Assembly (NCBI GenBank): GCA_022833215.1
Contig: JAIPUZ010000008.1
Coordinates: 1-54,365, forward strand
DNA from: Mesorhizobium sp.
Lineage (GTDB): Bacteria; Pseudomonadota; Alphaproteobacteria; Rhizobiales; Rhizobiaceae
Direction: 5' to 3'
DNA: 54,365 nt
A program made the translations under genes and the position numbers. The notes under the pieces are model-generated. The model did no database searches and had not been told where the DNA came from. It worked only from the letters and a program-made list of their open reading frames with translations. This document shows positions 10,044 to 10,880 of this stretch, in pieces; within the stretch, counting starts at the first letter, position 1, and each line of letters starts with the position of its first letter.

Positions 10044-10157
10044 ATGCATTTTCCATTAAATCAGTAGATTTACCAATCCACATTTCCAAACTGTTGGCAA
10101 AGCGCCGTTTTTCGAATTTGGCCTTTTTATGTCGCAGGTGTGAAAGGGGTGCGATAT

Positions 10158-10175
10158 TGCATTGCACAAAATGCA
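10158..10175. promoter_or_regulatory. Inverted repeat upstream of the DUF1127 genes
   Basis: TGCATT (10158-10163) and AATGCA (10170-10175) form an 18-bp dyad with a 6-base spacer, 23 bases upstream of the putative -35. It may be a regulator-binding site. No specific regulator can be named. Confidence 0.3.
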
Positions 10176-10197
10176 TTGCTGCCATGCGAGTTCTGCG

Positions 10198-10226
10198 CTT
10201 TCAAAGCCGGGCGTATCCTCCTATCT
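10198..10226 (+). promoter_or_regulatory. Possible heat-shock sigma (RpoH-type) promoter of the DUF1127/sRNA operon
   Basis: CCTATCT at 10220-10226 followed by AGG matches the alphaproteobacterial RpoH -10 pattern CYTATnTnnG. Sixteen bases upstream CTTTCA (10198-10203) is an imperfect -35 (CTTGAA expected). The predicted start would give a leader of about 45-50 bases before the first DUF1127 ATG. RpoH control is established for the comparable Rhodobacter locus. For this sequence it is inference. Confidence 0.4.
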
Positions 10227-10279
10227 AGGCTGCGTACGAAGACGACAGAAACCGCAAGAACAATAAGACGAGCAAGACC

Positions 10280-10420
10280 ATGAACCTGATCCGCAACTAT
10301 CGCAACTGGCGCCGTTATCGGGAAACCGTTTCCGAGCTGAGCCGCCTGAGCAACCGTGAACTGAATGACCTCGGCATCAGCCGCAGCGACATTCATTTCG
10401 TAGCCCGCAAGTCGGTCTGA
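10280..10420 (+). CDS. DUF1127 small arginine-rich protein, copy 1
   Basis: A 46-aa protein starting MNLIRNYRNWRRYRETVSEL and continuing to LNDLGISRSDIHFVARKSV. The W-R-x-Y-R-x-T-x-x-E-L core and the DLGISR-x-D-I end define DUF1127. Members are small, basic helical proteins. CcaF1 of Rhodobacter binds RNA and affects sRNA maturation, and others influence phosphate and carbon metabolism. GACGAGCAAGACC precedes ATG 10280 with only a weak ribosome site. A paralogue starts 47 bases downstream and the hairpin array follows on the same strand. Confidence 0.93.
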   Translation: MNLIRNYRNWRRYRETVSELSRLSNRELNDLGISRSDIHFVARKSV

Positions 10421-10467
10421 CCCTTCGGGGTGGCCATCACCCCGAACAGTTTCGCTGGTAAAAGACG

Positions 10468-10608
10468 ATGAACCTGATCCGCAGCTACCGCAATTGGCGT
10501 TCTTACCGCAAGACGGTCAATGAGCTGGGTCGCTTGTCCAGCCGCCAGCTTGATGATGTCGGAATTTCGCGCTTCGAGATCGAACAGATCGTGCGCAAGT
10601 CATTCTGA
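10468..10608 (+). CDS. DUF1127 small arginine-rich protein, copy 2
   Basis: This copy is also 46 aa and clearly a tandem paralogue of the previous gene: MNLIRSYRNWRSYRKTVNEL, then LDDVGISRFEIEQIVRKSF. Both share the first residues MNLIR-x-YRNWR-x-YR. The C-terminal halves diverge, so the pair is an old duplication or under different selection. It ends only 11 bases before the first stem of the CCUCCUCCC hairpin array, so the non-coding units probably come from the 3' part of the same transcript. Confidence 0.93.
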   Translation: MNLIRSYRNWRSYRKTVNELGRLSSRQLDDVGISRFEIEQIVRKSF

Positions 10609-10619
10609 CAACGGAATTT

Positions 10620-10733
10620 CATCGGAGCGACCTCCTCCCCGCTTCGATGGATAGGATCAGCCGCTCCTCCTCCCAATTGGCTGATCACCCTAACGGCGCC
10701 CGCCGGAACCTCCTCCCCCGGCGGGCGCTGTTA
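10620..10733 (+). ncRNA. CCUCCUCCC-hairpin small RNA, unit 1 (cuckoo/CcsR-like)
   Basis: Three consecutive hairpins can be drawn by hand. H1 (10620-10649): 9-bp stem, one G-U, loop GACCTCCTCCCC. H2 (10655-10686): stem GATCAGCC/GGCTGATC, loop containing CTCCTCCTCCC. H3 (10691-10733): 16-bp stem with one G-U, loop AACCTCCTCCC. Each loop is complementary to the GGAGG Shine-Dalgarno core. The layout downstream of a DUF1127 gene matches CcsR1-4 of Rhodobacter sphaeroides and the alphaproteobacterial cuckoo RNA family. Strand is inferred from the operon and from loop complementarity. No T-run follows H3, so processing rather than termination may define the 3' end. Confidence 0.82.
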
Positions 10734-10765
10734 AGAAAAATTCAGCTCCCTTTGGAGCAGCCAGT

Positions 10766-10880
10766 TTCGCCGAAGCCGACCTCCTCCCCGGCAACGGCGA
10801 ACGGTCGATCTCCTCCTCCTCCCAGGATCGACCACCTTAACGACACCCGCCGGACCTCCTCCCCCGGCGGGTGTTGTCGT
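10766..10880 (+). ncRNA. CCUCCUCCC-hairpin small RNA, unit 2 (cuckoo/CcsR-like)
   Basis: The second unit repeats the three-hairpin order. H4 (10766-10801): 7-bp stem, AA/AA internal loop, 4-bp stem, loop ACCTCCTCCC. H5 (10803-10833): stem GGTCGATC/GATCGACC, loop TCCTCCTCCTCCCAG. H6 (10840-10877): stem of about 14 bp, loop ACCTCCTCCC. H6 keeps the CCCGCCGG core of H3 but has A-T pairs at two positions where H3 has G-C, a compensatory change. A 32-base linker containing a small GCTCC-CTTT-GGAGC hairpin separates the units. No clear U-tract follows, and trmFO begins within 70 bases. Confidence 0.82.

Follow-up and report, generated by a model that had tools for sequence, protein, structure and literature searches.

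NfeR1 from Sinorhizobium meliloti is a small RNA (sRNA) of three hairpins, activated by LsrB, whose loops were found experimentally in that species to silence mRNAs by pairing (PMC10746234). The family of RNAs with such anti-Shine-Dalgarno (aSD) loops was described as SmelA075/SmelA099, which are reported to be stress-induced and processed, and the likeness of the motif to the anti-Shine-Dalgarno sequence of the 16S rRNA is stated in the same source (PMC3927594). According to a Northern blot study, only one of the six NfeR1-type copies of S. meliloti is reliably detected (PMC7143759), so that the presence of a copy is no proof of its expression. RNAs of this kind pose the question of how pairing with many ribosome-binding sites is dosed while the RNA's own message is spared.

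A second described system is known as CIN1, a name given to short DUF1127 genes associated with CcsR-like RNAs (PMC10253847). In Rhodobacter sphaeroides, the gene ccaF1 is reported to be co-transcribed with CcsR from an RpoHI/RpoHII promoter (PMC10253847), and RNase E and CcaF1 to act in the maturation of CcsR (PMC10253847, PMC8625941). CcaF1 itself is described as binding RNA and affecting the RNAs of its own operon (PMC10253847, PMC12501420). The DUF1127 domain has also been argued to be a protein-interacting and not merely an RNA-binding domain, and the 47-48-aa DUF1127 proteins of Agrobacterium reportedly exert their effect via the kinase PhoR (PMC12501420). Finally, the reported targets of the activator VtlR are short DUF1127 genes in Brucella and, in Agrobacterium, atu1667 (PMC12595884 for vtlR). 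None of the 40 sRNAs predicted for M. huakuii in one table is annotated there as ar14, the Rfam name of the NfeR1 family, and no paper on a tandem arrangement in Mesorhizobium was recognised, the founding CIN1 paper and the 2021 CcaF1 paper lying outside that scope.

The locus considered here lies in a window of 54,365 nucleotides from Mesorhizobium sp. (contig JAIPUZ010000008.1), and all of its features are on the + strand. It is best explained, with a probability of about 0.68, as a CIN1-type operon under activation by LsrB/VtlR, read as one transcript, whose ar14 sRNAs would silence Shine-Dalgarno sites. Two open reading frames of 46 codons, at 10280..10420 and 10468..10608, match DUF1127 (Pfam PF06568, cut-off 23.3 bits) with 63.7 and 53.3 bits, in agreement with a preliminary description of two 46-aa DUF1127 genes. 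The DUF1127 proteins encoded here are tiny and arginine-rich. The spacer between both genes holds a hairpin with a 9-bp stem (10424..10446), and a stable hairpin occupies the same spacer, with differing stem bases, in 15 of the 17 relatives folded, L009 and L014 being the exceptions; it may set the ratio of both proteins or mark a cleavage site. The own genome has five DUF1127 matches: the pair in the window, a single 46-aa copy on contig C117, and two inside longer reading frames (162 and 142 aa). The C117 copy (L005), a third 46-aa gene, has a strong AGGAGG leader and is free of sRNA units within 3.1 kb.

The six hairpins that follow make up a tandem pair of ar14 units, each with three hairpins and each a member of the NfeR1/"cuckoo" sRNA family. 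The hairpins begin 9 nt behind the stop codon of the second gene and span 260 bases (10618-10877), as had been claimed from the letters alone. The covariance-model search suggested at that stage returned two full-length matches to RF02344 (ar14), of 86.0 bits for unit 1 (10613..10733) and 86.1 bits for unit 2 (10762..10879), with a gathering score of 58.8 bits. Unit 1 consists of hairpins at 10618-10651, 10655-10686, and 10691-10733, with no T tract after the third; unit 2 consists of hairpins at 10766-10801, 10803-10833, and 10840-10877, where a TTT behind the last one forms a weak candidate terminator. Each of the six carries CCUCCUCCC in its loop. The 32 nt between the units include a small hairpin without the motif (10745..10758), and in relatives this spacer varies in length and folding.

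The string CCTCCTCCC is found seven times in the window, compared with 0.54 on average over 100 shuffled versions (maximum 2), and six of these copies fall at 10631-10863. A seventh stands at 518-526, outside the locus, where 0.54 copies are the chance expectation for the window. The stretch 10606-10880 folds with -134.3 kcal/mol (z -10.6; none of 200 shuffles was equally stable), placing all six motifs in loops. In an alignment of 35 units, 14 of 24 predicted pairs show compensatory two-sided changes and the loops are invariant; 43 units had been found, from which unit 1 of L017, running off its locus, and seven divergent units (L029, L031, two in L040, L059, L084, and L088) were dropped, and no unit was called in L009, L010, L034, L043, L055, and L083, with other spacing or altered loops. 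In several loops of Aminobacter L009 and L010 and of L221 (genome G204) one CCT triplet is lost, a sign of decay of the "invariant" motif in individual units.

These loops are the ground on which the leading alternative, though a rather unlikely one, has to be weighed, namely that they mainly bind protein, the hairpins acting as a sponge for a C-rich-RNA-binding protein or for the DUF1127 proteins themselves, in operon feedback rather than mRNA silencing. Repeated identical loops would fit this, as would the RNA binding of CcaF1 and its effect on the RNAs of its own operon (PMC10253847, PMC12501420). Against it stand the silencing by pairing reported for the NfeR1 loops of S. meliloti (PMC10746234), the likeness of the motif to the 16S anti-SD (PMC3927594), and the distribution of ar14 in the own genome: besides the two matches in the window there is a third, solo one on contig C49 with no DUF1127 gene in the surrounding 3.1 kb, showing that the RNA exists without the protein in cis. 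An anti-Shine-Dalgarno role of the loops, put forward in the preliminary description, is likely.

The putative switch of the locus is a 31-bp element, TTGCATTGCACAAAATGCATTGCTGCCATGC, at 10157..10187, a candidate operator of the LsrB/VtlR type that emerged from a genome pattern search and a same-genus comparison and that sits 93-123 bp 5' of the first DUF1127 gene. As a degenerate pattern with at most 3 mismatches, it occurs at two places in the own genome, which are the two ar14 loci (window and solo), and the reversed-pattern control occurs at none. With at most 4 mismatches, all of the 35 same-genus loci have it 115-125 nt ahead of the start of the first DUF1127 gene, and it is present in 20 of the 31 named loci with DUF1127 before the motifs; the 11 named loci without it at this threshold include Pseudaminobacter L014, Brucella/Ochrobactrum, and Phyllobacterium. 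Within the element, TGCA-N6-GCAT stands at 10163-10176, or -70 to -57 from the predicted start, and the LsrB site reported for NfeR1 has the same form at -72 to -57 (PMC10746234). The element also resembles, with 3 mismatches, the VtlR motif given as CAATGCAGCCATGCA (PMC12595884). The full 31 bp were used as the marker in place of two shorter motifs: TGCA-N6-GCAT by itself has 5 matches in the window where 3.3 are expected, which is not significant, and the 15-base Brucella VtlR motif, tried as a marker and rejected, has 7 window matches at 3 mismatches. As a degenerate 15-mer, the latter has 3 exact matches in the genome and 24 with one mismatch (reversed control 0). Upstream of the DUF1127 gene on C117, a sequence like the LsrB element but one base shorter, and so missed by the 31-bp pattern, was seen by eye.

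Downstream of the element, a candidate sigma-70-type promoter, CTTTCAA-N16-CTATCT (10198..10226), was recognised by eye from its likeness to the NfeR1 promoter, CTTAGAC-N17-CTATAT (PMC10746234), and would place the transcription start near 10233. A possible regulator is encoded on contig C76, where an LsrB-like gene of the LysR family (298 aa) is flanked by an oxidoreductase gene read as trxB, immediately in front of it, and by an ar15/AbcR match behind it, the same order as described for the vtlR neighbourhood in Brucella (PMC12595884). For the NtrC motif of NfeR1, TGC-N11-GCA at about -116 to -100, a pattern with only six fixed bases, inspection by eye showed no counterpart at that position, and one at 10150-10166 that overlaps the LsrB element. 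The 31-bp element is likely the switch of the locus, of the LsrB/VtlR type.

The T tracts bear on whether genes and units share one transcript. Among the 35 aligned units, at least three T within ten columns downstream of hairpin 3 were found in 1 of 15 internal units and in 20 of 20 last or single ones (unit 1 of L015, whose second unit has an altered third loop, being set by hand as internal), and among further loci a T run of three follows 25 of the 28 last units and 2 of the 45 internal ones (L231 and L238, 2 of the 35, omitted as identical to named loci), counts that are not independent because most of the loci compared belong to one genus. The three last units without a T run are those of L221, where a degenerate second unit with a T run follows, of L233, at a contig end, and of L250, which reads GTTGTATT. 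The third hairpin thus looks like a terminator almost exclusively in the last unit, a near confinement that argues for a single read-through transcript; the tract of the window's own last unit, just TTT, is weak and counts against the operon model. The distance from the DUF1127 stop to the first motif is 20-33 nt in 28 of the 31 named loci, and co-transcription of the DUF1127 genes and the ar14 units is probable.

An independent transcription of the ar14 units from promoters of their own is improbable, even though the layout in Sinorhizobium sp. 6-70 suggests it. There, before trmFO (L037, 1380-2890), the order is ar14, ar14, DUF1127, DUF1127, with long spacers between what appear to be separate units and, by eye, TGCA-rich sequence before each element; NfeR1, too, is reported to have its own promoter (PMC10746234). 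Since this locus has the same elements spaced apart, read-through of arrays is not universal. At the window locus, the merely 9 nt between stop codon and hairpin 1 and the 32 nt between units speak against separate promoters, as do the 31-bp element, which stands only before the DUF1127 genes, and the lack of a T tract in most internal units. That the hairpins are mere stabilisers or terminators at the 3' end of the DUF1127 mRNA, with no role in trans, is very improbable, because the resemblance of the last hairpin to an intrinsic terminator in most compared loci accounts neither for invariant loops on drifting stems, nor for arrays of 2-4 units, which termination does not need, nor for the solo ar14.

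Under the LsrB/VtlR operon reading, LsrB would bind 10157-10187 and a single RNA would start near 10233, carrying two short DUF1127 messages followed by two ar14 units, the first of which would be read through while the last hairpin doubles as the terminator. Cleavage of the 3' part, probably by RNase E as in the case of CcsR, would then release ar14 sRNAs with three CCUCCUCCC loops each, and these, by analogy with their family, would pair with the Shine-Dalgarno sequences of other mRNAs and silence their translation like NfeR1. The DUF1127 proteins would work alongside, either in RNA maturation, like CcaF1, or through partner proteins, as with PhoR; a maturation role of such 46-aa proteins may be extrapolated from the 71-aa CcaF1, and the Agrobacterium proteins of 47-48 aa are reported to act via PhoR. 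Unequal crossover between units would change the number of sRNA units, the terminator remaining at the last one. The different driver in R. sphaeroides, an RpoHI/RpoHII promoter (PMC10253847), counts against this model.

The genomic surroundings place the locus among many relatives. The next gene after the array is trmFO, whose product is 88 and 86% identical to those of Aminobacter and up to 85% to those of Mesorhizobium, where very near records may be missing. Across a family sample, ar14 is found in 194 of 199 genomes at E 0.001 and in 184 of 199 above the cut-off, with 0 of 14 controls. A pair of DUF1127 genes about 190 bp apart was counted by hand in 36 of 37 same-genus genomes, the exception (G219) being a fragmented assembly with one weak match, and DUF1127 precedes the motifs on the same strand in 31 of 80 TrmFO loci. 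One DUF1127 gene with three or four motifs is the arrangement in Brucella, Ochrobactrum, and Phyllobacterium (L018-L020, L028, L029, L031). Pattern searches gave 15 of 289 genomes class-wide, the own one included and, among the others, three of family f48 with a DUF1127 reading frame beside the motifs, and order-wide 27 of 150 genomes among the matches listed. A different array form is present in Aurantimonas (L083:2109-2797), where a single DUF1127 gene, its leader being GAAAGGAGG, is followed by seven motifs, several of them spaced at 137 bp.

In the preliminary description, the locus was taken as the cuckoo/CcsR-type system in a Rhizobiales genome, in an enlarged form. The combination of DUF1127 with this type of RNA in two three-hairpin units stands; the hairpins belong to a curated Rfam family (ar14), the closer experimental relative is Sinorhizobium NfeR1, and the form called enlarged, two genes with an array of 2-4 units, is the usual one in the genus. 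Judged from sequence, the locus is a genuine, conserved CIN1/ar14 member, ordinary within its genus, and the putative fused operon is the form taken in Mesorhizobium and Aminobacter by a module whose parts lie apart in other groups.

Array size varies among the 35 same-genus loci, with two units in 22, three in 11, four in one (L222, 12 motifs), and one array cut by a contig end; the last unit has one altered loop in L234, L237, L243, L245, and L254, and the second unit of L221 is degenerate. The origin of the extra units was addressed in 11 three-unit arrays with intact motifs (L014, L022, and nine further same-genus loci). In all 11, the middle unit is nearer to the last unit in its first hairpin, and in 10 of 11 it is nearer to the first unit in its third. 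L014 is tied for the third hairpin and switches within its tail, which matches the first unit at 12 of 12 positions and the last at 4 of 12. In M. jarvisii (L022), the middle unit's hairpin 1 agrees with the last unit at 37 of 38 positions and with the first at 22 of 38, and its hairpin 3 agrees with the first at 40 of 43 and with the last at 36 of 43. Both middle units of the four-unit L222 show the same first/last hybrid pattern, Aminobacter L009 and L010 have a similar hybrid look by eye, and the second hairpins of middle units take no clear side. Such hybrids are the pattern expected if unit 1 and the last unit had undergone unequal crossover, a process that would also keep the terminator at the end of the array. 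The ten arrays of the Mesorhizobium type may derive from one event, and those of L014, Aminobacter, and L222 look like separate events.

The DUF1127 leaders bear on how the operon's own message might escape its loops. Within the clade, with identical leaders counted once, the 30 linked leaders have a median duplex energy with the loop of -2.9 kcal/mol, 1 of them at or below -6, against a median of -10.4 for 21 leaders of unlinked 46-aa paralogues among the matches listed, all 21 at or below -6 and nearly all with GGAGG. The two leaders in the window give -3.3 and -2.8 kcal/mol. With random 25-mers of the window at a median of -3.5 and 45 window genes, at the first start, at -4.2, the linked leaders are near random, so that the Shine-Dalgarno signal is simply absent from them; shuffled linked leaders reach the observed median in 1 of 200. 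The contrast may reflect one or two evolutionary events within the clade. Over all loci, 51 linked leaders (L035 classed as such solely via a stray motif near trmFO) have a median of -3.1 and 89 unlinked ones of -7.4, and at least 5 matches to the 16S complement are found in 22 of 51 and 57 of 89, respectively, figures in which group and clade are confounded. As a general rule the contrast was rejected: of 19 linked leaders from other families among the matches listed, 7 are at or below -6, two of them with GGAGG, and Aurantimonas L083 has the GAAAGGAGG leader.

An avoidance of anti-SD hexamers over the DUF1127 part was likewise abandoned. The first count, in 14 relatives, was 0 where 13.0 were expected, an expectation inflated because the reverse complement of the array had been included; the recount gave 0 against 3.6 from the array-free locus, 6.1 by shuffle, and 0.0 from the sense strand of trmFO, and across 35 genus loci a single hexamer was counted where shuffling predicted 15.7. 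Since trmFO also lacks these hexamers, the argument was dropped. A self-sparing, dose-adjustable riboregulator can be proposed only tentatively: an LsrB-driven single transcript whose own SD-less DUF1127 messages would escape the anti-SD loops, whose built-in target would be the unlinked paralogue with its GGAGG leader, and whose units, 2-4 in the genus, would be altered in number by unequal crossover with the terminator staying at the end.

DUF1127 genes beside such RNAs are already described as CIN1, and what is added here is the likely switch and a proposed course of the array's growth by copying. The LsrB-type switch, the terminator pattern of the last unit, and the crossover history are worth keeping, and so, as a hypothesis, is the contrast between the paralogues. 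Because its members have 2, 3, or 4 units at the same conserved site, share a promoter element, and possess a paralogue whose leader is of the opposite kind, the genus offers a natural dosage series for the question of how such RNAs are dosed and kept off their own message, and LsrB-NfeR1 and CcaF1-CcsR, which have been studied separately, meet in one probable operon.

Three described systems come close to this locus. The short DUF1127 genes activated by VtlR/LsrB (the BAB1_0914 group of Brucella, atu1667 of Agrobacterium) share with it short DUF1127 genes under VtlR, a control that is putative here, but the descriptions consulted mention no sRNA units behind them; in Brucella/Ochrobactrum L018, L029, and L031, DUF1127 genes linked to trmFO do have motif hairpins, and the 31-bp element appears there at 5, 9, and 9 mismatches. 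The CIN1 locus ccaF1-CcsR1-4 of R. sphaeroides also has repeated RNAs with aSD loops immediately behind a DUF1127 gene and a terminator at the 3' end, a candidate one here, with co-transcription there and probably here; it differs in the 71 aa of CcaF1, the RpoHI/RpoHII promoter, and four RNAs of two stem-loops each, whereas the window has two proteins of 46 aa, an LsrB-type element, and two units of three hairpins. The ar14 RNA NfeR1 of S. meliloti (Smr14C2, SmelC397; RF02344) has the same three hairpins, CCUCCUCCC loops, and full-length model match, and its start, which is a predicted one here, lies about as far from an LsrB-type element. Unlike NfeR1, described as a single transcript with its own promoter, the locus in the window has a tandem of two such units that follows immediately on a pair of DUF1127 genes.
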